Source of the DNA: a virus | DNA: 33,236 nucleotides | IMG/VR virus record: IMGVR_UViG_3300000233_000018 | Location: 1-33,236 of that record | Strand: one strand, 5' to 3' | Shown: positions 1 through 33,236 of the stretch, piece after piece | Layout of the letters: every line of letters starts with the position of its first letter | Position numbering within the stretch: position 1 is the stretch's first letter | Translations under genes and position numbers: made by a program | The notes under the pieces: generated by a model | Database searches by the model: none | What the model was told of the DNA's origin: nothing | The model's input: only the letters and a program-made list of their open reading frames with translations

Positions 1-39
1 GGGGGGTACAGGGGGGGTACAGGGGGGGTACAGGGGGGG
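1..39 (+). repeat. 11-bp tandem repeat of G7 runs spaced by TACA
   Basis: Runs of seven G separated by TACA, period 11 bp (G6 at 1-6, then G7 at 11-17, 22-28 and 33-39). The right end of the window (33219-33236) holds two more G7 runs of the same array. Merging the 17-base overlap gives four G7 runs with three four-base loops, an ideal G-quadruplex on the plus strand. It lies inside the replication protein gene, where it encodes a Gly-rich linker. Since 11 is not a multiple of three, each copy is read in a different frame. Exact copy number is uncertain because the assembly ends here. Confidence 0.9.
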
Positions 40-442
40 TGTCCCTTTACCTTTACCTTTACCTTTACCTTTACCTTTACCTTTACCTTTACCTTTAGAA
101 GAAGAGAAAACACCTGTCGGTGTTCCCAAAAAGGGAAAATCAATTATAAACAAAAAAAACAAAGGATGAGCGATACAAATATATGATAAGATAAAAGAGA
201 TGTGTGTGGTTGTTGATTGAACCCTTAGCGATTGTGTTGTACTTAGATCAAGACTTGAGCAGTATGGTGGAGATCCTGTCAATCTCCTAAAGATTATGAT
301 TACAAGGATGAGAGATATCGGACTTAATCAATACTATTCTGTTTCTAGCCCACAAAAACTCGCAGAACATTTAGGGACAATAGTGGAGAAGTTAAAGATA
401 TCAGACAAGAAGAAAAATAATACCTTTATCCCTTGATTCTAG
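2..442 (+). CDS. Replication initiator-like protein, C-terminal part
   Basis: This is the 3' part of the gene that starts at 32801 and crosses the contig junction. In the frame starting at base 2 it reads a Gly-rich segment, nine Pro-Leu pairs, a basic Lys-rich stretch, then a helical domain (YDKIKEMCVVVDG onward) to TAG at 440-442. In-frame TGA codons (for example 434-436) are read as Gly. Joining over the 17-bp overlap gives 861 nt and 286 residues without interruption. The layout of an N-terminal winged-helix domain, a low-complexity linker and a C-terminal helical domain resembles DnaD-type phage replication proteins. The C-terminal domain itself I do not recognise. It heads the rightward operon, and the next gene begins four bases after the stop. 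Confidence 0.75.
44..97 (+). repeat. CCTTTA hexamer x9, encoding (Pro-Leu)9
   Basis: Nine perfect tandem copies of the hexamer CCTTTA follow the G-run array directly. In the reading frame of the replication protein they encode nine Pro-Leu dipeptides, extending the low-complexity linker between its N- and C-terminal domains. The array keeps frame whatever the copy number, unlike the 11-bp repeat before it. Such repeats inside an initiator gene could also be part of a replication origin, as in the O gene of lambda, but I see no direct evidence for that. Confidence 0.9.
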
Positions 443-446
443 TATA

Positions 447-794
447 ATGAAAGAAAATAACCCATATAACAATGATCAGAGGAAGCTATACCCTAGCTAT
501 ATTTGATTCATTAAAATGAAAAGCTGAGAGGATATGGTATGTGATCCTGAATTGTGTGTATCTATCGTAGATACACTTAACACAAAATGATTAGTGCGAT
601 CTGACTTATATCAGCGTACTATACATGCCTTCGACATAGAATACATAAGAAAAATGAAGACGAAAGACGAACAAAGAATATTGCTTGACAAGTTAGTGAC
701 ACTGCAACAAGAACTAACAGAAGCCTCTATTTTATCTTTTAATCACTCGCTTGAATGACTAAAAAAATCAAAGCCCCTACCAAACTTACAGTAG
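447..794 (+). CDS. Hypothetical protein, 115 aa
   Basis: ATG start four bases after the replication gene stop; TAG stop. Four in-frame TGA codons are read as Gly. The protein begins MKENNPYNNDQRKLY and its middle and end look alpha-helical and charged. Its 3' end overlaps the next gene by 40 bp, a tight arrangement that implies co-transcription and perhaps translational coupling. I do not recognise the family. Its place right after the initiator would suit a replication accessory role such as helicase loading, but that is inference from position only. Confidence 0.7.
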
Positions 795-1234
795 AAGAAG
801 AACAAGAGATCCAAAAGTTATTATCTACAATAGAAGTCTCAACAGACGAACAGATAGACTCATCTATAGGTCTATATGGTAGGTATATTATATATGCTTA
901 TAGGTTCTGACTTATCACAGATAGTCAGAGATGAGTATTAACAAGATATAAGAATTGGAGGGCGAAAATAAATAACGAAAGGAAAGAGAAGACGCTATCA
1001 GAGAAGATGATGATACTAGAGCAGAGTTATGATGAGCCACCAATGATATATCAGATGTGATATATCCAATGAAGAATAATAGTGTCGAGTACCCAAACAG
1101 TACATATACCAAAAGACAATAAAACAAAAGAAGTAGCAAACTGATGAAAAAACATGATCCTCGAAATCTACAAAGAAACTACCCCCAAAGCGTACGAATA
1201 TGCAAGAGAGAGGTATCAGTTATTTATTAGATAA
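755..1234 (+). CDS. Hypothetical protein, 159 aa
   Basis: ATG start inside the preceding gene; TAA stop. Six in-frame TGA codons, including a TGA-TGA pair, are read as Gly. The start is basic (MTKKIKAPTKLTVEEEQEI), followed by a predicted helical middle. No motif I can name. The very AT-rich 200 bp after it contains a small hairpin and then a new promoter, so this is probably the last gene of the first rightward transcription unit. Confidence 0.7.
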
Positions 1235-1252
1235 TACATATCATATATATTT

Positions 1253-1267
1253 TACCATATAATGGTA
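1253..1267 (+). terminator. Weak hairpin after the first rightward unit
   Basis: TACCAT and ATGGTA pair around a three-base loop, 19 bp after a stop codon, and flanking TATA/TATA bases can extend the stem. There is no clear T tract, so it may be only a weak terminator or an RNA 3'-end stabiliser. Confidence 0.3.
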
Positions 1268-1287
1268 TATTATAACCAAACAATCTC

Positions 1288-1315
1288 TTGCAATTAGATA
1301 AAAAAAGAGTATACT
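1288..1315 (+). promoter_or_regulatory. Promoter, TTGCAA-16-TATACT
   Basis: -35 TTGCAA (1288-1293), 16-base spacer, -10 TATACT (1310-1315), expected start near 1322. The extended -35 CTTGCAATTAGA and the spacing match the leftward promoter at 32470-32497, and the rightward promoter at 32612-32639 has the same CTTGCAATT. It drives the recombination gene cluster beginning at 1453. Three copies with the same spacing, each in an intergenic gap just before a structured leader, make a chance match unlikely. Confidence 0.75.
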
Positions 1316-1321
1316 TCATCA

Positions 1322-1420
1322 TCATCAAGGGACAAGCAACGATATATTCTCGGAGGTATTGCTTAGCAATATGGAGTATATATCGGTATCGAGCTTATAG
1401 CTGACGGATACGGACAACCC
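1322..1420 (+). promoter_or_regulatory. Structured 5' leader RNA upstream of the 1453 gene
   Basis: The 131-nt untranslated leader can fold into several stems. 1340-1351 pairs with 1374-1385 (one T-T mismatch). Inside it, 1357-1362 pairs with 1366-1371 around loop TTA. A second branch has 1386-1390 pairing with 1407-1411 around the hairpin 1392-1395/1399-1402. GGG 1329-1331 may pair with CCC 1418-1420. The upstream arm AAGCAA (1334-1339) is also complementary to TTGCTT (1359-1364), giving an alternative fold. The 3' part resembles the leader at 32656. Function unknown: a cis-regulatory RNA is inferred from position and structure. Confidence 0.45.
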
Positions 1421-1452
1421 ATGATACATTTTATTCTTTATTATTTGCTCCA

Positions 1453-1710
1453 ATGGACTCACTCAAAAAACTACTTTACAATCAAGTTAAAGAAAATTGT
1501 AGGACAGAATTACAAAAAAAATGGTTCTTGGATTGGGTATCGTTTGATTATATGACATTATACGATGCTACAAATGAGTGTGAGATAGACTTCTCACAAG
1601 CATTATATGATGCTATCTATAACTCTATGGATGACTCTACTATAGAGATTACAGTCAATACATTATTCGAGTCAGGACTACAAGAGACTGTTTTATCTCA
1701 TAGGAAATAA
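1453..1710 (+). CDS. Hypothetical acidic protein, 85 aa
   Basis: First gene after the internal promoter and its leader. ATG to TAA, two bases before the ERF gene. No in-frame TGA and a single glycine. The sequence starts MDSLKKLLYNQVKENCRTEL and is mostly helical, with an acidic middle (DATNECEIDF). Unknown family. Its position just before an ERF recombinase suggests a recombination- or replication-linked role, but nothing in the protein itself shows this. Confidence 0.7.
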   Translation: MDSLKKLLYNQVKENCRTELQKKWFLDWVSFDYMTLYDATNECEIDFSQALYDAIYNSMDDSTIEITVNTLFESGLQETVLSHRK

Positions 1711-1712
1711 CA

Positions 1713-2255
1713 ATGGATAAACTATATGAAAAACTATTCAAGATACAAGAATTAAATATATCAGTAACAACAGACTGAGAAAATACATTCTTTAAAACTG
1801 CTTGATGAAAACCATCTAAATATACAACCTTAGAGAATCTACTAAAGGTAATACATCCAATACTAAAGAGGAATAAATTATTATTGTACCATAGGTGTTT
1901 CTGATGAAGTCTTATAACTACTATTGTTGATATTGATAGTCATGAGTCTATTACGTCAGAGTTTCAACTAACAAACACAGATCCGCAAAAACAATGATCG
2001 TCTATAACCTATGCAAAGAGGTATAACATATCAGCACTATTCAATATAACTACCGAGAAAGACGATGATTGAAACAAATGATCTTGAACAGGCAAAAAAG
2101 TGTTTGACGAGAAAAAGCTAGAATGACTAAAGAAACGATCTGTATGAAAATCTAAATGAGAAGTAATGCAATATGTGCTTAAAATACAAAAAGAATACAA
2201 AGTATCTGAAGAGGAAAAAGAAAGTCTCGATTTGTTCCTTACTACATTACAATAA
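1713..2255 (+). CDS. erf: ERF-family single-strand annealing protein
   Basis: A 180-residue recombinase of the ERF (essential recombination function, P22 Erf) family, which anneals complementary single strands during phage recombination and genome circularisation. Residues 90-121 carry the family signature: DPQKQGSSITYAKRY, then NISALF, then the acidic TEKDDDGN. The glycine of DDDGN and that after Q94 are both TGA, strong evidence for TGA as Gly. There are 12 TGA glycines and only one GGN. The N-terminal region (LENLLKVIHPILK) fits the start of the domain. The C-terminal 50 residues are a basic helix. It directly abuts the exonuclease gene (stop TAA then ATG with no gap), giving a Red-like exonuclease and annealing pair. 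Confidence 0.88.
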
Positions 2256-3023
2256 ATGGCTACAGAAAAGATTGATATATCGCTATACAATGACGAGATA
2301 AAGATACAATTCTACCCCAATTCACACCAATACAAAAAAGATTGAGTAAATCTATTATCTGTATCAGCTATATGTTGAGTAGTAGACAAATCACAATCTC
2401 TTGTATATTGGGCTACTAATCTAGCAAGAGACTATCTCCTAGAGAGAATGCAAACCGAAACAATATCAGAACAAGATGTAATAGATGCGTGCTTGCAACA
2501 TAAAGTAAAAAAAGAAGAGGCTGCGGATATATGATCGCAAGCTCACAAATGGGTAGAAAACTATATCAAATCAAGCACACTATCACTTCCTTCTGATCCT
2601 AGAGTGGCAAATGCGGTAAACTGATTCTTAGAGTGGACAAAGTGAAAAGATATAAAACGAGAACACTCTGAGATATTCACATATTCAAGAGAATATAACT
2701 ATGTAGGTATTATTGATTGTATAGCGACTATCGACTGAAAGAGGTATTTAATTGACTTCAAGACATCCAATTCTATATACTTACTTACCTATTGAATGCA
2801 AACAAGTGCTTATCTAAAAGCATACGAGGAACAGACTGGCGAGAAATTAGATTGAATCATTATAGTAAAATTCGCTAAAGAAGAAATAGATAAAAAATGA
2901 AATACTATACCATTATTTGAGACACAAGACATTATAGACATTGATTGATTCTATGAGGCGTTTATATCCGCGAAAGTATTGAAAGAATATGTAAAGAAGT
3001 ACGATACATATACAAGATACTAA
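2256..3023 (+). CDS. PD-(D/E)XK exonuclease (RecB/Cas4-like)
   Basis: 255-residue nuclease, probably the 5'-3' exonuclease partner of the ERF protein encoded immediately upstream. Visible motifs are those of RecB/Cas4-type PD-(D/E)XK nucleases: GSQAH (residues 93-97, with the conserved His), D154 in GIIDCIATIDG, the core IDFKTS with D167 and K169, and the QxxxY motif at Q182-Y186 (GMQTSAYLKAY). All catalytic positions appear intact. Fifteen or so in-frame TGA codons are read as Gly, including the ones before A40-type loops and in the DG at 160-161. Expected role: resect double-stranded ends to give ssDNA for annealing. Confidence 0.85.
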
Positions 3024-3047
3024 TTTTATTCACTAATATTATATGTA

Positions 3048-3866
3048 ATGTTTCCAATTATAAAAACAGATCCAACAATAGAACAGCTACAACTTATAGC
3101 ACAATCAGTAGACTGACTTATTATAGATTGAATAGACGATCAAGAGTGATTCGAGAAAGTGAAAGAACACAGAATCAAGCTAAAAAATATAAGAGTTGAG
3201 ATTACAAAACAGTGTAAGTCAATGAGAGAGGATGCAATAAAGCATCAAAAAGATGTTATCGTACATGAGAAAATGCTTATAGACATTATAGAGCCAACAG
3301 AATTAAAGTTAAAATGAATGGAGGACAAAATAAAAGAAATGAAAGAAATAGAAGAAAGAAGAAAGATATTACCAGACAGAATGAACGAGATAAAGAGGAG
3401 TTGATTCTCCGCTGATCCTGAATTTATAGTAACCCTTACGAGCGATCAATTCAATCTTCGATTAACAAACGAGAGATCAAAGAAGTTTATGGAAATGAAG
3501 GCGAAAGAAGACGAAGAAAAGGAAAGAAAGGAAAAGGAAGAAAACGAGCAGAGAATAAGAGACGAAGCAATACAAAAGGAAAAGGAAAGAGCAGAAAAAG
3601 AAAAAGCAGACATGGAGAGAAAGCACAAGGAAGATATCGAAAGAATACAGAAAGAGGCAGAAGATAAGGAGAGGAAAAGAATCGCAGACGAGAAAACAAA
3701 AGAAGAAGAAGAAGATAGAGAGAGAAAGAAAGCAGAGAAAAACAAAAAATATAAGGAGCGACTAGACGATAATTCATACAACGATAATGACTATATTATA
3801 AAATCAGATGCATGAAATAGTAGCTTTTATATGTATAAATTAGTGTCATCTATTACTATTTTATAA
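3048..3866 (+). CDS. Coiled-coil recombination-cluster protein, 272 aa
   Basis: ATG at 3048, TAA at 3864. The first 130 residues form a helical domain of the type found beside RecT/ERF genes in many phages (KVKEHRIKLKNIRVEITK, then a second long helix and IIEPTELKLK). Residues of about 145-240 are an extreme charged coiled coil, nearly all E, K, R, D and A. Six TGA codons are read as Gly. The purine-rich stretch also leaves open frames on the other strand at 3446-3781, which I regard as shadows. The N-terminal domain resembles that of the 146-aa protein at 5496. Function unknown: possibly an annealing-protein or nuclease partner. Confidence 0.75.
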
Positions 3867-3877
3867 AACAATACACC

Positions 3878-4294
3878 ATGAAACTCGCACCACTTCAAAA
3901 TAAAGACATCTTGGAAGCAAACAAAGCAATCAATGATGTCATAGATAAACTGAAATATACAAGGAATAGGGATGATGTAAATGAATTTGAATTTATGATA
4001 TATGAATTATCAAACATCATCTACAACAACAAATCAATATATTATCGCAACTATTACACAGTAGAGAGAGAGAAGGACAAGCTATTCATTGTAAAAAGAA
4101 AGAATGAAAACTCCGACTTAAAGACGATGAAATCTATAAATACAGAGATGAGGGAAGACATAACAATACTAGAACTACAAAAAGAATTTATAGAGCTATG
4201 TGAGAAACAACTGAAAGCGATAACAAGACTAGCAGACCACATAAACAATATGCGTATAGCTGATATGGCTGATGCAAAGAGAAGCCAAATATAA
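3878..4294 (+). CDS. Hypothetical helical protein, 138 aa, glycine-free
   Basis: ATG to TAA, 11 bp after the coiled-coil gene. The start MKLAPLQNKDILEANKAIND is followed by three or four long amphipathic helices. I see no glycine at all, neither GGN nor TGA, which is unusual beside its TGA-rich neighbours and suits an all-helical protein. Family not recognised. It sits in the recombination cluster between a coiled-coil protein and the SSB-like DUF3127 gene. Confidence 0.7.
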   Translation: MKLAPLQNKDILEANKAINDVIDKLKYTRNRDDVNEFEFMIYELSNIIYNNKSIYYRNYYTVEREKDKLFIVKRKNENSDLKTMKSINTEMREDITILELQKEFIELCEKQLKAITRLADHINNMRIADMADAKRSQI

Positions 4295-4318
4295 CCTTTA
4301 TCTCTTTTCCTATTATAA

Positions 4319-4624
4319 ATGAACTTTACATGAGAAATCATCTACATCTCACCTATTGAGTTGGCCGGCTCATCAGAGAAATTTGAAAAAAGAACAGTTG
4401 TGTTAGAAGAAATAACAGATAACAAGTACAAATGATCTATTTCCGTTGATCTCCTTAAAGACAAAGTGAGAATTATTGAATGACACAGGGAATGAGATAT
4501 TGTAGAGATTTCCTTTAATCTCAAAGCGAACAAAAATCTAACCACCTGAAAATACTATAACTCAATAAATTGACGATATATTAAGGAAGTAGAATCTGAT
4601 GTGGATAATGATATTCCTTTCTAG
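4319..4624 (+). CDS. DUF3127 family protein, SSB-like OB fold
   Basis: 101 residues matching DUF3127, a small OB-fold-like family common in phages near recombination genes. It starts MNFTGEIIYISPIELAGSS, then EKFEKRTVVLEE, EGDIVEISFNLKAN and a GKYYNSINGRYI segment near the end, the family's usual order. The last residues are DNDIPF, almost the acidic C-terminal tail of single-stranded DNA-binding proteins, so I infer that it binds ssDNA and recruits partners. Six in-frame TGA codons are Gly (for example in GEII, EGHREGD, TGKYY). TAG stop. Confidence 0.8.
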
Positions 4625-4651
4625 TTCTTTATCTCTTAATCCTAACATATT

Positions 4652-4984
4652 ATGAGACAATCACAAGTTATAAGTGTAGCGGTATTCCTCAAAAAGAGAT
4701 ACCCTGACTGGGTAAAATCTCCTACAATAAGGAACGAGATCTGAGCTACTGCTGATCGCAGGGCGTCTGATCTCAAGACCCTATGACTAATAGAGAAACA
4801 GGACACCTATTTTACCACACAAGAGTGAAAGAAAGTGTTGATTGCAGAGTATAGAATGACAGAGAGATGACTTGCTACTAATAACGATGATATACCTTGA
4901 ATGGTATATAATAAAATACCGAGAAGAACAAAAGATGAGGGCGAATTGAAAAGACAAAACAAAGAAATAAAGATATTTTATTAA
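4652..4984 (+). CDS. Small winged-helix-like protein, 110 aa
   Basis: ATG to TAA. Residues about 5-60 read like a winged helix-turn-helix: a first helix (VAVFLKKRYPDW), a turn, TIRNEIGATADRRASDLKTL as the helix-turn-helix with recognition helix, then LIEKQDTYFTTQEGKKVLI as the wing. Six TGA codons are Gly, including NEIGATADR. The C-terminal 35 residues are basic. It could be a DNA-binding regulator or a replication accessory protein; the family is not recognised for certain. The stop codon overlaps the region where the decayed gene begins. Confidence 0.6.
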
Positions 4985-5452
4985 CACAAACTGAAGAACT
5001 AAAAAAACTATGATATGTAGAATTCATTTGAGAAAGCCAAACAAAACGCAACACTTTTGGTCCAGAATATCGTATTCGTAACATTCTGATATCAGTTCTA
5101 TTTTCAATGAATCTGATAATAGAAAAATAAACATAACTATTGCAAAAGCCCCAGATATACAACCAACCACACTATTATGACGAATCAGATCTTTATTTCT
5201 TTAGTACCACACACACAATGGAAAGAAAACTATCATTGACCGCTATCCACACTATTGTAATAATTAGCATTCAACAACATCAATACCGAAACAGACAACA
5301 ATTACACACGATGATGTATATGGTAGGTATGAATTGACAATGAGCAAGGAATCGTATGATTAGAGACCTTATCTCTTGATGAATAATTTCATCGACTTGA
5401 AATAAATCTTATAAAGTAGTAAATAATATACTACCTACAATAGAGGTTTAAG
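4985..5452 (+). pseudogene. Frame-shifted, apparently decaying gene
   Basis: No single frame gives a convincing protein, but good coding-like pieces lie end to end in all three plus frames. Examples are EELKKLGYVEFIGESQTKRN (frame of 4981), then NRKINITIAKAPDIQPTT (next frame), YYDESDLYFF (back in the first frame), AFNNINTETDNNYT (third frame), DDVYGRYELT and then DNEQGIVGLETLSLDE, again in different frames. The longest single frame, from TTG 5140 to TAA about 5452 (104 residues), is rich in H, Q, T and R, unlike its neighbours. I read this as one ancestral gene broken by several small indels. Local sequencing error is the alternative. No start codon is evident for the upstream piece other than ATT. 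Confidence 0.45.
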
Positions 5453-5495
5453 TGTGAATAGGATATTTTTATTTTATTTTATAAGACAAACACTC

Positions 5496-5936
5496 ATGAC
5501 AGACTTATTAGATGTACCACATACAGTGACAGTAGAGAACTCCCAATTTAATGCAATCTTGGAACAGACATCAAGCATCCAGTTTAAAGCAAACGACCTA
5601 GAGATCAAAGACTATGAAGACACAGTCCTAGCAGTAGAGATCCGTAAGGAAGCAAAAGAACTAGAAAAAACAATCGAAGAAAAGAGAGTAACAATGGTAA
5701 AACCAATGAACGACATGGTATCGGCAATTAACCAAAAGGCAAAAGAGATCAAAGAACCAATCCAAACAGTAATAAACACTATAGACTGAAAGGTAAGACG
5801 GAAATGGGACATAGATGATGAAGATAAAATCCCAGTAATATATAAAACAGTAGATAGCAAGAAAGTAAATGAAGCGATAAAAAATGGAATAAGATCAATA
5901 GACTGAATAAAAATATATCAAGAGAGTGGCTTCTAG
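5496..5936 (+). CDS. Recombination-cluster accessory protein, 146 aa
   Basis: ATG at 5496 chosen over an upstream GTG at 5454, whose extra residues (NRIFLFYFIRQTL) do not fit the family. The N-terminal 90 residues are two long helices (VLAVEIRKEAKELEKTIEEKR, then KEIKEPIQTVINTIDG). The C-terminal segment KTVDSKKVNEAIKNGIRSIDG followed by IKIYQE matches a short domain I associate with phage proteins encoded beside RecT or ERF. Two TGA glycines. TAG stop lies within a terminator-like hairpin. Function unknown, probably an annealing or nuclease partner. Confidence 0.72.
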
Positions 5937-5959
5937 TCACTCCCCTCTCTTTATTTTTT
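5921..5959 (+). terminator. Intrinsic terminator, rightward
   Basis: GAGTG (5924-5928) pairs with CACTC (5938-5942) around a nine-base loop, and flanking AGA/TCT bases extend the stem past a CC bulge. A T-rich run (TTTATTTTTT) follows. It contains the stop codon of the 146-aa gene. The next gene starts 13 bp further on, so some readthrough or a separate promoter must exist. Confidence 0.45.
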
Positions 5960-5971
5960 ACAAAATATATC

Positions 5972-6262
5972 ATGTACAACACACTAACATCAGATGAGAC
6001 ACCTGAAGTATTACAAACGCTAAGAATGCAAGTGACAGATGACGTGGAACACCTAGAGAGGATTAACAAATTATTTAATGAATGATTATCAATTCTATCG
6101 GACAAACTATGACTCTATACAGACAAAATCGACAAAGATAAAGTTTCCACCCCTACCCCAGTGGAACCAAGCCTCCAAAACCTGAGATATAGAATTTCAG
6201 ACAGTATCAAAGAATATGAGGATCTAGTTGACAAACTCTTTTACATACTACAAAAACTATAA
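5972..6262 (+). CDS. Hypothetical helical protein, 96 aa
   Basis: ATG to TAA. Two TGA glycines (NEGLSILSDKLGLYTDK). The protein is helical with heptad-like spacing of Leu and Ile, a short Thr-Pro linker in the middle (STPTPVEP) and a second helix to the end. Probably a small coiled-coil dimer; family not recognised. About 200 bp without genes follow it (6263-6464). That gap holds a hairpin at about 6272-6303 and a promoter-like TATAAT close to the next gene. Confidence 0.65.
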
Positions 6263-6409
6263 TAGAAATCCTGTTGAAGAATAAGAATAATTTTCTTACA
6301 ACTCCCGTCTACGAGTATAACTGAGAGCGTCCACGAACGACAGAGAGGTCAGCATATTTACGACTTATTCTCCTAACTACAGGGATCACACAATACATCC
6401 TCCACGTGG

Positions 6410-6438
6410 CGTGATTGGATAACCAACTAATGTATAAT
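6410..6438 (+). promoter_or_regulatory. Candidate promoter upstream of the repeat protein
   Basis: A perfect -10 TATAAT lies at 6433-6438, 27 bp before the ATG at 6465. The -35 is not clear: TTGGAT at about 6415 is too close (about 12 bases). A small hairpin with CACG/CGTG and ATCC/GGAT pairing sits just upstream. This promoter does not match the CTTGCAATT type used elsewhere. Confidence 0.35.
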
Positions 6439-6464
6439 CTCTTTATTTTTAACCCCCTTATATT

Positions 6465-7754
6465 ATGAAAAAACGCAATGAAGATGATAATGATGGTGTT
6501 GAGATTATTCTTGATTTCAATGACTGATTTAAGTTTGTTAAATTAGCAAGTGAAGAAAGTTATATGGGAGAATTGAAGTCTCTGTGATACAGTTGCATTT
6601 TCTATCAGATATATAATATAAATGCATCATCTCTTAGAGATGAAAATGATAAACCATGTTGTATCATTTGGAAAGGTAAACTAATAGAAAGCAAGGAAGA
6701 GAAGGGGATAAACCCAAAATATATAAAATATATAACAAAATTCTTAGAAACAGTGAATGTACATATGCTAGAGAGTACGATGAAAAAAATATGATATTAC
6801 AAACTAGATAGTATTGATACTGATTTAAGTATTGATCCTAAGTATTTATTTGACTGAGAATATGTGTCTGAATGAGATTCAGAGCATATTAAGGACGAAA
6901 ATTGAGAACAGTATCTTTGACTTTGACTATTGAATATTAAAAAACTGTTCGAGATAAAAGAAGATTATTCAATAGAATATAATTTTAACTTACAATCAAT
7001 GATAAATTATTCCGAGAGAAGAGATAAAGTTAGTGATATTATTGAAATAACGAATAATTCTTATAGTACAGCAGTAGCGAATAGTTCTGATAGTATAGCG
7101 GTAGCGAATAATTACAATAGTATAGCAGTAACTAATAATTCTGATAGTATAGCAGTAGCAAATAATTACAATAGTACAGCAGTAGCTAATTATTACAATA
7201 GTACAGCAGTAGCGAATAGTTCTTATAGTACAGCAGTAGCGAATAATTCTGATAGTATAGCAGTAGCGAATAGTTCTTATAGTACAGTGGTAACTAATAA
7301 TTCTGATAGTATAGCAGTAGCGAATAATTCTGATAGTACAGCAGTAGCGAATAGTTCTGATAGTATAGCAGTAGCGAATAGTTCTGATAGTATAGCAGTA
7401 GCAAATAGTTCTGATAGTATAGCGGTAGCGAATGGTAAGAACTCGTTAGCTATTGCTAGATGATATAACTGTGTAGCGAAAGGGAAAATAGGCACATGGT
7501 TATGTCTAACTGAGTATGACCCACAAGACGATACAATAATAAATATGAAAGTCCTACAAGTAGATTGAGTTAGTGTAATAGGAAATACCTATTACAAATT
7601 AAAAGACAATGATTTTATTATAGTAGAAGATATCAAAGAAGTCTTGGATGTATACGCCGATCTTTTAGTCGATAGTGAGGAGACATCTAAGAGTATAAAT
7701 AACACTGCTAGTGTTATTAACACTACTAGTGCTATTGTGGTAGATGATATTTAG
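6465..7754 (+). CDS. Repeat protein with 14 nine-residue units, 429 aa
   Basis: ATG to TAG. Residues 1-196 are acidic and mixed. Residues 197-322 are 14 tandem nine-residue units of consensus N-(N/S)-(S/Y)-x-S-(I/T)-A-V-A, and two degenerate units follow (NGKNSLAIA, RGYNCVAKG). The C-terminal module (KGKIGTWLCLTEYD, then INMKVLQVDG, NTYYKLKDNDFIIVED) matches a repeat protein found in phages and prophages of Bacteroidetes and Firmicutes, where the repeats read SAATNTG-like. Such repeats probably form a right-handed beta solenoid. Thirteen or so TGA glycines lie outside the repeats. Function unknown; it is the largest rightward gene and is encoded outside the virion operon. Confidence 0.75.
7053..7430 (+). 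repeat. 27-bp tandem repeat, 14 copies
   Basis: Exactly 378 bp, 14 units of 27 bp, encoding the nine-residue beta-solenoid repeats. Units near the 3' end (copies 12-14) are nearly identical and those at the 5' end are more diverged, suggesting recent expansion by slippage at the 3' side. The unit length is a multiple of three, so copy-number change keeps frame. Confidence 0.92.
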
Positions 7755-7869
7755 TGAACAACTAACATTTTGCTTAATAAATAGATATAAAAATTAAAAG
7801 AAAAACCCTCACATACAAATCCAATCATTCGAGAGGTGTATCCTTTTTAGCCCTTATCTTCACATTATC

Positions 7870-8199
7870 ATGGATATGTTACAGAAAAGAGTACAAAGAA
7901 GAGCTTACCAAGCAGAGTATGAAGAATATCTATCAACACTGGGGGGCGAGGTCGTGCCGACCCCATATAGACTATATTCACATATGCTGTCCCAAAGAAA
8001 AAGCTATAAAAAAACAATAGCAAAAATTGAACAAGAGAACTTTGATTTGGCAAATAAAGGGCTACAAGAAGAAATTGAGCTCTTAGAGAAAGACATTGTA
8101 GACACAAGAGACAAGATACGCCAACGAGACAATTTAATGATGATTCATGTTGTTGCAATGGCAGTGTTTATAATCTTATTCTTTATTTACATTAAGTAG
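7870..8199 (+). CDS. Coiled-coil protein with C-terminal membrane anchor
   Basis: 109 residues, ATG to TAG, no TGA. A basic N-terminus is followed by a coiled coil at about 45-86 (KIEQENFDLANKGLQEEIEL) and one hydrophobic membrane segment at 90-108 (MIHVVAMAVFIILFFIYI), ending in Lys. It is encoded just before another small membrane protein and the endolysin, so a role in lysis (holin, antiholin or spanin-like) is likely by context. The topology with the coil facing the cytoplasm would suit an antiholin or tethering role. The 115-bp gap before it holds no feature I can name. Confidence 0.65.
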   Translation: MDMLQKRVQRRAYQAEYEEYLSTLGGEVVPTPYRLYSHMLSQRKSYKKTIAKIEQENFDLANKGLQEEIELLEKDIVDTRDKIRQRDNLMMIHVVAMAVFIILFFIYIK

Positions 8200-8235
8200 T
8201 GTAGAACCTCGATATCTTTATTTTCTAAACTCAAA

Positions 8236-8580
8236 ATGGTCAAACAAAACAAACCATGGCTAGTATCTTTTGTTATTCTTGTTGTGTCTATTGGTATTAT
8301 ATTATTTCAAGGGGATTTTATAAAAAAGAGATGGAATAATTATTATGAGTCGCAAATGTGACTCCAACAAATAAAAATTCTTAAAGACCAAAAGGTAGCA
8401 AAAGAAAACGAATATCTAGAGAGGTCATCAGAGCTAGTCTTAATGCAACAAACAGTTGCTAGACTAACAGTAGAGACAAAAAATTTATCTTGAGCAATCA
8501 AGTCAATCTCATGACATATATTCGAGATTGAAACGAGTCTTTTACTTCTCCAAAAAGCAATATGACTAACCACTGACTAA
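8236..8580 (+). CDS. N-anchored coiled-coil protein, Rz/holin-like, 114 aa
   Basis: ATG to TAA. A single membrane segment at residues 8-25 (WLVSFVILVVSIGIILF) is followed by an outward-facing or periplasmic coiled coil (KILKDQKVAKENEYLERSSE and beyond). Four TGA glycines. The topology of a short N-terminal anchor plus coil resembles the inner-membrane spanin Rz or XhlA-like proteins. Its last base is the first base of the endolysin ATG (TAATG), so the two are translationally coupled. That supports a lysis role, although the family is not certain. Confidence 0.65.
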
Positions 8581-9608
8581 TGGTGCTTAGTGTGGCATTG
8601 CTTATGACAGCATCATATTATACTGTCAGAAACAGTATGCCAACTAAATTATCATACGATTCCATTCCCAAGTCAATAATAGAACAAACCATTGTAGATA
8701 TTGAGTATAAAGCATCAGAGGCAGATGCCTCTGTAAATACACTTTTCCAAAAAGATATAACACAAGTAGTAATACACCATACTGCAACCGATTCTGAACA
8801 AGATGTCCAGAAACTACACAAAGCTATAACTAAAAACCACACCAATAGGTGGATAAGATGAGGTATAATAAAGACAGGGCAACAAATGATGTACCATAGG
8901 CTTATTGGTTCTGATGGTACAATATTAGGAGATAAAGACTTCAATGAGATATGATGGGGAACTCGTGAGAATAATGTAGGCGTAATCCATATCGCATTAC
9001 AATGAAACTTTAACGATGTTCCTCCTACAGAGGCACAATATGAAACCCTACAACAAGTATTATGAACACTTGAACAAAGATATTGAGAAATAAAAATATC
9101 ATGACATTGAGAGTTAGAGTGAGAGAGGACGGCGTGTCCGTGAAAACTATTTGATTATACAAGGATACAAAAGACAAAGGCAGAAATACCAACGATACAA
9201 AATACACCCCCTTCAATAACAAAGATATACAAAAATGTGAGAGTTAAATGAAAACGAATTGAGGTAGATAATGCAATACAATACACACTAACTCAATGTA
9301 ACAAAAAAATAACTGACACTGGCAAATATTCTTGTTACAATATGGTACTCACATTTAACGCAGAGAACTGAAACTGGGATAAGGACGCAAAAAGCAAGAC
9401 TAACACTAATTGAACAACAGATTACGGGATTTGTCAATTGAATAGCGAATATCATAGTACTTTTATTAACAGTCCAGATTTCAAATATTCAGAGAAACAA
9501 ATAGATTATTGTATAGCTGTATGGCAGGATGCAAAATTAAAAAAAGTTATGCCACGAAAGGCGTTTGATAAAAGATTTGAGAGATGAAAAAATGTCTTAT
9601 TCTGGTAG
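8580..9608 (+). CDS. Endolysin: amidase_2 plus lytic transglycosylase
   Basis: 342 residues, ATG overlapping the previous TAA, TAG stop. A short hydrophobic N-terminus (VLSVALLMTASYY) could be a signal-anchor. Residues 60-195 are an N-acetylmuramoyl-L-alanine amidase of the PGRP/AmpD type: VVIHHTAT with the Zn ligand His66, GVIHIALQGNF, SGHGELEG with His176, and TACPGKLFD with Cys186. Residues 235-330 look like a soluble lytic transglycosylase or lysozyme domain: MVLTFNAENGNW with catalytic Glu262, then TTDYGICQLNSEYH. Thus one protein may cut both the amide and the glycan bonds of peptidoglycan. About 17 in-frame TGA fall on expected glycines (SGHGE, CPG, AENG). It is the last gene of the rightward operon. 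Confidence 0.85.
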
Positions 9609-21538: not shown

Positions 21539-21601
21539 CTCGTCTACTTCGGTAAAGCTCGATATATCTATAGTGATTTCTTTAAATTTTGCAATCTATT
21601 T

Positions 21602-28317: not shown

Positions 28318-29880
28318 CTAAATTATATTTGCATGTCAGAAAACGTATATCGATTGTGCATCAACCATTATTCTTGCATTATCTATTGTCCGAGTTCCTC
28401 ATAAACTCTTCATACTGAAATTAACGGTAGATCCTGTGGAATAGAAAGGTAGCCTTGCGATGTATTGATATATATCTACTCAATCATCGGTATCTTCTCA
28501 TCATGTAATCGCATCTGTTCATATAGGCCTTACTCATATAGACTCATTTGGTTTGAATTCAGTAATCATCGCATCAGTTATCAATCATCAACCTACTATC
28601 TCCCCATCTACTTCTATATTAACTTCTATATCTAGATTCTTACTCTTTTTACCTATAAGGTCTATATATTCATAAGTCTTGAATGCTCAAGGCTCTCAGA
28701 AATCAAAGTCTTTGCTCTTAATCTCGTGTTCTATCGACTCACCCAAGTCGTCGAATCATGTCTCTATTTCATATAATCTATCTTCTGTGGCACTTGCTAC
28801 AAGGTATTTATATTCTCCTGTACTTGTTATGTAGAATCAATAATCATATATGGCAGGTAGGGTATACTGTGTCCGAGCCTTTACTATGGAATTATACACT
28901 AGAGTTGTGTCTGGGATATCATCTCCATTTGTATCAAATGTAATATAATAGTTACCTAGTCTTTTTATGTACCAACCACAATTTGCATTAAGGTTTAATT
29001 CTCTTATCTTGGTTGTAAGTTCCCTCACATCCTCATCTAGTGGATTACTTTCTAAAGCACTTGCTCAAGCTAGTGATTGTCTTGGTTTGAGGGTGTCTAT
29101 CCCCCTATCAGTTAGATATACAAGAGAATTACCGACATTAGAGATACTTCTGTCGCTATATCCTCAAGTTTGTGCATCGATTGGATCTGATCTCTCATTC
29201 GCTACATCCACACTATATATCTTGTTTGATTTAATCACGAGTATTATATTTCAAAGTTCATTAAGTCCATTGATTCTTCATAATTCATCTCATCACACTA
29301 CGACTGCATTAGCATCTACTATAGATCAGTTAATAGGTGCTGCGTTGGTATAATATAACGTATTCGGATTAACATCTACTCAAGCTCAGAGTAATCTATC
29401 GGTATTCATATTGATATATCTATATTTCGGTTGTGTCGCATATACTGAGTATGTCGTTCAGTCATAACTCGCATAATTATCTATTCCGTTTGTTAGATAG
29501 ATGACATTCTTATAGACTGCATAATCTCGCCTTGTCCTTCGTGTTGTTTTGTTTGTAGCTGTCTCGAATTCGGTCAGCCCACTCTTGATACTAGATCGGT
29601 TGCTAGTCGCTTCATTGTATCTATACATATTTGTACCACTTGCACATAATGCTGTGGTCGCTCAGGTGTCGTCCCTCTGAAAAAAGAAGTAAGAACTGAC
29701 TGGTTTTAATGATCATACGGCATTACCGAAGTATTGCATTCCATACCTCGTTTGGAGCTGCCCCCTTTGGTTATAGAACATATTCTTACATACAGAAAAT
29801 TGATTATCCCCTATATCACTTGTGATGGATAGGTTCAATCATCAATCGAATCTCTTAATTTTTATAGGTTTTATCGCCAT
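28318..29880 (-). CDS. Tail hub/nozzle protein, gp10-like beta propeller
   Basis: 520 residues, ATG to TAG. It begins MAIKPIKIKRFDGGLNLSIT, the usual start of the P22 gp10 / T7 gp12-type tail nozzle family, followed by CKNMFYNQRGQLQTRYGMQ. Repeated blade-like units follow: a four-strand pattern with YAVYKNVIYLTNGIDNYASY, NGLNELGNIILVIKSNKIYS, RSISNVGNSLVYLTDRGIDT and KYLVASATEDRLYEIETG. These suggest a six- or seven-bladed propeller with an outer domain. Over 25 TGA glycines. It lies directly after the connector gene, as gp4-gp10 do in P22-like phages. Confidence 0.72.
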
Positions 29881-32396: not shown

Positions 32397-32410
32397 ATTA
32401 CAGAATAAAT

Positions 32411-32462
32411 AAAAAGAGTCATATCCACCGCGAAGAAGATATAGCTCTTTTTAGTCCGCGGT
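32411..32462 (-). promoter_or_regulatory. Leader RNA pseudoknot before the leftward operon
   Basis: AAAAAGAG (32411-32418) pairs with CTCTTTTT (32445-32452), and ATATC/GATAT pairing (32421-32425 with 32438-32442) extends the stem past a 2x2 internal loop. The hairpin loop contains ACCGCG (32427-32432), which is complementary to CGCGGT at 32457-32462. In the leftward transcript this is the very 5' end. The result is an H-type pseudoknot between the RNA 5' end and the loop of an A/U-rich hairpin that ends in a U run. It could act as an attenuator, a 5'-end protector or a ligand sensor. The ATG of the first gene is 15 bases further on. Confidence 0.6.
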
Positions 32463-32469
32463 TAGTTTT

Positions 32470-32497
32470 AATATAGTGATTCTATTTCTAATTGCAA
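32470..32497 (-). promoter_or_regulatory. Leftward promoter, TTGCAA-16-TATATT
   Basis: -35 TTGCAA at 32492-32497 and -10 TATATT (AATATA on the plus strand, 32470-32475), 16-base spacer; the extended -35 is CTTGCAATTAGA. The predicted start is near 32463, exactly at the first paired base of the pseudoknot leader. This should drive the long leftward operon of NinG-like, packaging, virion and lysis genes. Confidence 0.75.
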
Positions 32498-32611: not shown

Positions 32612-32639
32612 TTGCAATTTAATTTTATTTGATTATACT
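32612..32639 (+). promoter_or_regulatory. Rightward promoter, TTGCAA-16-TATACT
   Basis: -35 TTGCAA (32612-32617) with CTTGCAATTT context, 16-base spacer, -10 TATACT (32634-32639); expected start near 32646, ten bases before the structured leader. It drives the replication gene. It is divergent from the leftward promoter, with about 140 bp between the two start sites. The gap between them (32498-32611) is AT-rich, and I see no clear operator or repressor site in it. Confidence 0.78.
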
Positions 32640-32655: not shown

Positions 32656-32781
32656 AGCCTTGCGATATACTTTTGATTGTATGATAGGGAGCATTTATGC
32701 TCATACGGATGGACGTACCCCAGTGGGGAAGGGATCATACAGAAAACCTCTAGTTACTCGCAAGGCTACTAGGGGTTTTCT
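32656..32781 (+). promoter_or_regulatory. Structured riboswitch-like leader of the replication gene
   Basis: A perfect 10-bp stem (P1) pairs 32656-32665 with 32758-32767. Inside it, an 8-bp stem (P2) pairs 32678-32685 with 32734-32741 and encloses two hairpins: GAGCA/TGCTC (32689-32693 with 32698-32702) and CCCC/GGGG (32718-32721 with 32725-32728). Overlapping the 3' side, 32741-32753 pairs with 32769-32781 (13 bp, one G-U), followed by a U-rich tail like an intrinsic terminator. The 3' strand of P1 is in the loop of that hairpin, so the two folds either compete or form a pseudoknot. This is the geometry of a regulated attenuator. I cannot match it to a known riboswitch class. Confidence 0.6.
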
Positions 32782-32800
32782 TTATAATAAAAATATTATC

Positions 32801-33236
32801 ATGGCTAAAACACGTATGATTTCTACAGACTTTCGATCTGATACTTGGATTGATAATTTAGACCCTATAGAGAAACTCTTATATATCTATTGTTTCACTA
32901 ATGATAAGTCTTCATGGTGTGGAGCAACAGAGATACCTCTAAAAAAGATATGATATGAAACATGAATTGATAGGGATATGGTACAGAAAATACTTAATAG
33001 ATTCGAGGTAGATAATAAGGTTATATATTCCTGATGATATTTGATTATAAAGAATTTTCTTAAACGGCACCTCAACGGAATAGAGAGTCCAGATAAGCGA
33101 GGTAAAAATTCACAACTAAAGGCAATAAAAGATGCTATTCTCAAATTACCTGATGATATATATAATATATGTTATGGCTTTGTAATTGGATTTGATGATA
33201 TTTGTAATCAGAAAGACAGGGGGGGTACAGGGGGGG
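32801..33236 (+). CDS. Replication initiator-like protein, N-terminal part
   Basis: ATG at 32801 (MAKTRMISTDFRSDTWIDNL). An alternative TTG at 32660 would read through the structured leader and is rejected. Residues 1-110 match the winged-helix N-terminal domain of phage replication proteins that I know from many small-genome phages: LDPIEKLLYIYCFTN, then IPLKKIGYETGIDRDMVQKI with LNRFEVDNKVIYSGGYLIIK and NFLKRH. Four TGA codons are Gly (KKIGYETG, YSGGYL). The frame runs into the G7-TACA repeat (NQKDRGGTGG) and continues at base 2 of the window. Merging the 17-bp overlap gives a single protein of 286 residues. Role: binding the origin, perhaps the repeats in its own gene, and recruiting a host helicase. 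Confidence 0.78.
33219..33236 (+). repeat. Right-end copy of the G7-TACA array and 17-bp overlap
   Basis: Two G7 runs separated by TACA. The last 17 bases (33220-33236: G6, TACA, G7) are identical to bases 1-17. With a 17-base overlap the replication gene frame is kept (codon starts at 32801 and at 2 coincide), whereas direct joining, or a six-base overlap, would break it. Confidence 0.85.

Follow-up and report, generated by a model that had tools for sequence, protein, structure and literature searches.

A probable transcription attenuator with an interleaved antiterminator ahead of the replication operon of a TGA-recoded phage

In phage P4 immunity, the CI RNA is a processed RNA that acts in trans, and pairing within the leader of the replication operon decides whether transcription terminates prematurely. 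The rep leaders of the Gram-positive plasmids pT181 and pIP501 are attenuators in which a pre-emptor strand base-pairs to the terminator's 5' arm and a counter-transcribed RNA shifts the outcome (PMC5703833), and pT181 furthermore makes use of a kissing-hairpin interaction (PMC3753616). The putL and putR elements of phage HK022, leader RNAs of about 70 nt at both divergent promoters with sequence in common, bind RNA polymerase and act on distant terminators (PMC9378689). In transcriptional riboswitches with pseudoknots or switch helices, of which the Mn riboswitch is an example (PMC11087558), an early helix competes with the terminator cotranscriptionally.

The leader described here precedes the replication operon of a tailed phage, and its nearest functional parallel would, by analogy, be the rep attenuators of pT181 and pIP501. 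It is likewise the leader of a replication gene with a terminator immediately upstream of the ATG, and an upstream pre-emptor strand, here called a, is predicted to prevent that terminator from forming. It may thus work alike but is not a member of that group, since the pairing target of a is the terminator loop and not the 5' arm (one related phage with an arm-pairing strand, G033, being the exception) and since no general promoter for a counter-transcript was seen. Moreover, unlike in the plasmids, the structural operon carries the layout as well. With putL and putR it has in common that putative cis-acting leader RNAs affecting termination are found at both divergent phage promoters, but membership was rejected, as the put elements are a conserved pair of stem-loops devoid of a terminator, whereas the present leaders share no sequence and fold differently. 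As in P4, RNA pairing in a phage replication leader is proposed to set premature termination, although the processed trans-acting RNA is a feature of P4 and any counterpart here is speculative. The predicted cotranscriptional competition of an early helix with the terminator also resembles the Mn type of riboswitch, but the conserved ligand aptamer of the latter was not found in any of these leaders, and the label riboswitch goes beyond the evidence.

The window, by which we mean the whole stretch of DNA analysed, is the entire IMG/VR phage record IMGVR_UViG_3300000233_000018 of 33,236 bases. Long open frames cover 36% of it under the standard code versus 89% under code 25, in which TGA encodes glycine, and the phage is therefore TGA-recoded, as has been reported for phages of Absconditabacteria and Gracilibacteria (PMC10746230); from the genetic code, as the sole basis, we infer a host of this type. 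The literature searched held nothing on gene regulation in phages of TGA-recoded Absconditabacteria or Gracilibacteria, comparison of the window with annotated phages at the DNA level gave no match, and a search of genome contigs for terminase relatives returned none, a broader one giving mostly unrelated phages. The genome is laid out in two divergent blocks, rightward for replication and leftward for structural genes (Table 1). Its last bases stop inside a GGGGGGTACA tandem repeat which also opens the record (1-40 and 33214-33236) and is read in frame as part of the rep gene. The genome is thus probably circular, the record having been opened at this repeat, and since the repeat stands at both ends, the rep gene probably resumes at position 1. 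The rep protein has 23 viral relatives, only distant ones. Among the early-strand genes, a protein rich in SYSTAVANNSDSIAVAN-type repeats (6465-7754) matches only phrogs of unknown function.

Table 1. Coordinates of the two leaders and of the gene blocks in the window
Feature	Position	Strand	Basis
Promoter TTGCAA-16-TATACT, rightward (replication) operon	32612..32639	+	sequence
Hairpin ATCAAAAG[CCTTGCGATATA]CTTTTGAT, 8 bp, showing strand a in its loop	32650..32677	+	MFE and centroid structure
Strand a AGCCTTGCGA, candidate 5' strand of the antiterminator	32656..32665	+	perfect complement of a'; P(a:a') 0.98 in transcript ending at a'
P2 domain, 8-bp closing helix TGTATGAT/ATCATACA around three small hairpins; spacer between a and terminator	32678..32741	+	predicted structure
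Intrinsic terminator hairpin b:b', 14 bp, U-rich tail	32741..32783	+	predicted fold
Strand a' TCGCAAGGCT in 13-nt terminator loop, directly adjoining b'	32758..32767	+	sequence
Replication gene (DnaD/DnaA-like replisome organizer), code 25	32801..33236, runs off record end	+	phrog_6251 E 4.9e-13, phrog_1701 E 8e-10
Rightward block: replisome organizer, Erf, exonuclease, SSB, amidase	from 32801, continuing at 1-9608	+	
Promoter TTGCAA-16-TATATT, leftward (structural) operon	32470..32497	-	sequence
Strand a of leftward leader ACCGCGGA	32455..32462	-	layout score -33.2, 0/2400 shuffles
Leftward terminator, about 17-bp stem with one mismatch, U-tail; stem ends 13 nt before ATG of the 32396 gene	32407..32453	-	
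Strand a' of leftward leader TTCGCGGT, in terminator loop	32427..32434	-	
Leftward block: terminase subunits, portal, capsid, tail proteins	32396 to about 9600	-	

In the rightward leader a and a' form a perfect helix of 10 bp, a' lying 92 nt downstream of a, and the intervening P2 domain holds the hairpins GAGCA/TGCTC (5 bp), UACG/CGUA (4 bp) and CCCC/GGGG (4 bp). The terminator hairpin reads AGAAAACCTCTAGT-[TAC TCGCAAGGCT]-ACTAGGGGTTTTCT(TT) with the tail GGGGUUUUCUUU, it ends 19 nt before the rep ATG, and its G+C-containing stem and U-tract, above chance, are those of an intrinsic terminator; a simple consensus terminator scan missed it because that scan permits loops of only 3-8 nt. An earlier, sequence-only reading of 32656-32781 had described four nested helices of 10, 8, 5 and 4 bp, all of which are present within a few bases of where it put them, and a terminator-like hairpin with one strand of the outer helix in its loop. 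The hairpin does exist and does hold a' in the loop, but the stem has 14 bp in the MFE structure and not 13. The mutually exclusive or pseudoknotted geometry claimed is found as well, a' sitting inside the terminator loop in the interleaved order a-b-a'-b', and the proposed place ahead of a replication gene agrees with the match to the replisome organizer family phrog_6251. What had been overlooked are the hairpin displaying a, the TTGCAA-16-TATACT promoter and a leftward twin of the leader. This twin (32407-32462) has the same layout with a different a/a' pair, namely the promoter TTGCAA-16-TATATT, then ACCGCGGA, then TAAAAAGAGCTATATCTTCTTCGCGGTGGATATGACTCTTTTTA with TTCGCGGT in its loop; a P2-like domain is absent, and the gap between a and the terminator is a single nucleotide.

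The layout is unlikely to have arisen at random. The MFE of the rightward leader is -45.7 kcal/mol compared with -31.5 +/- 3.5 for shuffles (z = -4.1, 0/200), and the joint score of strand a plus a terminator with a' in its loop is -44.3, with 0 of 2400 dinucleotide shuffles reaching it and the best of these at -31.9; nor was the score of the leftward leader reached in as many shuffles (Table 1). Scored for the layout, 71 TTGCAA-type sites give a bimodal distribution, since six of them score -31.9 or lower and the next scores -24.9, and all six (0/200 shuffles each) are leaders before an operon. The promoter form TTGCAA-N16/17-TATA itself occurs five times in the window versus 0.56 expected. 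Further TTGCAA-16-TATA promoter matches, unaccompanied by a pseudoknotted terminator, are seen inside the early operon (1288-1315, plus strand) and just upstream of the portal gene (21569-21594, minus strand). A third exact copy of AGCCTTGCGA lies at 28451-28460 inside a structural gene and in the leftward mRNA reads as a', a potential partner for strand a of the replication leader; extra copies are not general in other genomes, and this one is probably due to chance, with roughly 0.02 copies expected from base composition. In Rfam 15 the whole window gave no match at gathering score and chance-level matches only with permissive filters, in keeping with the earlier reading, which could not assign the element to a described RNA class.

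We consider it likely, on the basis of the predicted folds, that the rightward leader is a transcription attenuator whose antiterminator is interleaved with the terminator. Strand a, close to the 5' end of the leader, would pair with a' in the loop of the terminator immediately upstream of the first gene, and since the polymerase reaches a' shortly before the second terminator arm b', the a:a' helix could form first and keep the terminator open, giving read-through. If a were unavailable, or if a:a' lost the race, b:b' would form and RNA polymerase would stop before the gene. As modelled, the two helices share no nucleotides and are interleaved, so the switch would work by topology and timing and not by strand sharing. 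The structural operon would carry its own version of this switch with another a/a' pair. In these leaders we infer termination, read-through and regulation alike; candidate triggers may be polymerase speed or pausing, a protein, or a trans-acting RNA, for which the terminated leader itself would also qualify.

Folding of transcripts, in nested folds that ignore pseudoknot energies and the polymerase, is consistent with this order of events. In transcripts ending at a', P(a:a') is 0.95-0.98 in 7 of 11 leaders (0.98 and 0.95 in the rightward and leftward leader of the window, and at least 0.96 in five of the nine outside it). In the full-length transcript it drops to 0-0.02 in the two leaders of the window (0.00 rightward, 0.02 leftward), where the terminator wins, as well as in G025_A and L037_L. 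The a:a' helix is not dominant in the prefix fold of G029 (0.01), G025_B (0.22) and G006 (0.35), and in G020_R, G008 and L037_R it still dominates the full-length nested fold, in which pseudoknots cannot appear. Because the antiterminator is predicted to form first and the terminator to be more stable later, the decision to stop or go is probably kinetic. This folding order and the non-random layout support attenuation as the likely function, as had already been suggested.

Close homologues of the rightward leader or of the rep gene were not found in viral contigs, which gave one distant match only, and the layout nonetheless recurs. In the code-25 relative G025 (39% identity in rep) the layout is the same with unrelated letters, AAGTCAGACC pairing with GGTCTGACTT in the terminator loop. 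It likewise precedes the first genes of replication operons in the code-25 phages G006, G008, G020, G025 (twice), G029 and G036; these first genes are unrelated to one another and are followed by DnaB-type helicases. The leaders of G006, G020, G029 and G036 (L037) and the second one of G025 were found by a layout scan, and those of G008 and of the opposite operons of G020 and G036 by eye. The promoter form TTGCAA-16/17-TA...T stands ahead of ten of the eleven code-25 leaders, G025_A with TTGACA being the exception. Phages with the standard code and the same rep family show the layout too (L055 and L066, and by eye L170), as do L057 and L059, but there the second hairpin of the a-b-a'-b' series has no U-tract. 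The 3' arm of this hairpin in L057 contains AAAGGG not far from the ATG, and translation may therefore be the controlled step.

In most leaders 3-31 nt separate the end of the terminator stem from the first ATG, and a' adjoins b' within 0-2 nt; in compact cases its other flank in the loop measures 2-4 nt. The gap between a and b is 75 nt in the rightward leader, so a:a' and the terminator could in principle coexist, but it is just 0-3 nt in several others (the leftward leader of the window, L057, L059, G006 and L033), and both full helices cannot form together there. No domain is common to the about 15 leaders with the layout, and neither sequence nor fold of P2 is seen in the others; the recurring feature is an arrangement and not a sequence-conserved RNA class. 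Nor is the arrangement universal. In G033, among the closest genomes by terminase, the rep terminator is instead opposed by an overlapping antiterminator of the conventional kind, in which GGTGGGTT pairs with the arm AACCCACC of the terminator. At 17 of 25 rep-family loci there is no terminator-like hairpin near the gene, partly because rep sits inside an operon there, and Geobacillus virus E2, which has a related rep protein, likewise has its rep gene inside an operon and hence no leader for comparison.

Since the leader has no close homologue, column-by-column covariation is precluded, and its place is taken by a swap test between unrelated leaders. In this test each terminator loop is paired with the upstream strands of other leaders and the summed helix energies are compared. 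For seven code-25 genomes chosen by their DnaB helicase only, own pairs sum to -117.9 versus -76.6 +/- 10.7 (p=0.0007), and for eight loci chosen by rep protein only to -107.5 versus -90.1 +/- 6.6 (p=0.007). In a pooled set of 16, the window included, 0 of 100,000 permutations reach the observed value, and a set in which no U-tail was demanded gives p=0.003. A terminator loop is thus better matched by the upstream strand of its own leader than by foreign ones, although this does not hold everywhere. The leaders are few, and the scan itself supplied some of them. The first swap test took in such scan-picked leaders, whereas the later sets were chosen without reference to the feature, and the formal tests use non-scan sets except for the pooled set with the window. 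For G008 and L064 the automatic hairpin picker took another hairpin, which in both cases counts against the result; G008 has the layout by eye all the same.

Several other explanations must be weighed against an attenuator. The hairpin could be the constitutive end of a short stable phage RNA, a:a' only protecting it or setting a fixed read-through, with no switch involved. This would suit the full-length fold, which strongly favours the terminator (P(a:a') 0.00), and the display of a in a hairpin loop, seen in G025_B, G025_A and L070 also, makes a kissing complex with the terminator loop conceivable. However, whole early and structural operons lie downstream and no other equally strong promoter is found near their start, so substantial read-through must occur, and a-b gaps of 0-3 nt in several leaders exclude coexistence of the full helices; we therefore regard such a constitutive end as unlikely. 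A speculative extension of the attenuator, rather than an exclusive alternative to it, is feedback in trans, in which a terminated leader RNA, with a and a' exposed, would pair with a or a' of new leaders, deprive them of their antiterminator and raise termination, in the manner of the P4 CI RNA or of plasmid antisense RNAs. In most genomes a is found nowhere else except with its own a', and each leader has a private a/a' pair as self-specific control would predict, but private pairs also arise through simple drift. The leader loops, where 2-4 nt precede a' and nothing follows it, resemble antisense recognition loops, and a kissing-hairpin interaction is known in pT181. On the other hand, an antisense promoter search found none within 7 of 11 leaders, and the sole match in the window leader is a weak TTGCGA-18-TATGAT, which leaves such feedback quite improbable. 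The wider proposal, that both genome halves are under self-specific RNA switches in which the exposed a' loop of a terminated leader shuts its own operon in trans, is to our minds doubtful to the same degree. If true, it would mean RNA-only copy-number control or superinfection immunity with neither a dedicated repressor nor an antisense gene, each phage carrying private a/a' codes.

The sequence-only reading called the leader riboswitch-like. A ligand-sensing riboswitch would have P2 as its aptamer, and P2, placed between a and the terminator, is indeed compact and branched. It is however not conserved, has no Rfam match and is missing from the leftward leader, and the layout occurs in its absence; because no domain between a and the terminator is common to the leaders, this explanation is not supported and appears very improbable. 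An aptamer private to the rightward leader, which has no close homologues to align, is conceivable. That the leaders are put-like elements, binding RNA polymerase and conferring terminator resistance, agrees with their presence at the start of both divergent operons, as for putL and putR (PMC9378689), but is hardly to be expected when nothing is common to the leaders and the pairing target is their own terminator loop. Finally, a and a' could act at the DNA level, as an inverted repeat that a repressor or initiator recognises, given that the two match perfectly in inverted orientation and lie close to both a promoter and a replication gene. This we hold to be highly unlikely, since a' is always in the terminator loop and the sequences differ between operons and among all the phages. 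A repressor-operator reading was also rejected because a is not repeated in the genomes, save for the one extra copy in the window at 28451.

The attenuator favoured here would represent a design in which antiterminator and terminator have no bases in common. As only the arrangement is conserved, methods of the Rfam type, which depend on sequence conservation, miss it. The arrangement does however provide a signature for operon starts, consisting of a TTGCAA promoter, an a strand, a terminator loop complementary to a and a start codon, which can be scanned for in any genome.

Differently wired leaders were also seen. In the rep leaders of L070 and L002 a hairpin loop pairs over 12-15 bp with downstream sequence (GTTACTATCCTAAGC with GCTTAGGATAGTAAC and GCGTTGCTTACT with AGTAAGCAACGC), and both leaders also hold a strand complementary to the terminator arm, so they may be related attenuators; a whole-locus scan of the GC-rich locus L002/L064 gave many chance matches and was excluded as evidence. 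In the code-25 phage L033, the leader of the portal gene (1220-1362) has AGGAAACGGT pairing with ACCGTTTCCT in a hairpin loop, and a further pair, GGAAACTAT..ATAGTTTCCTTTTTT, overlaps the 3' arm of this hairpin, which looks like a three-state switch with inverted logic.
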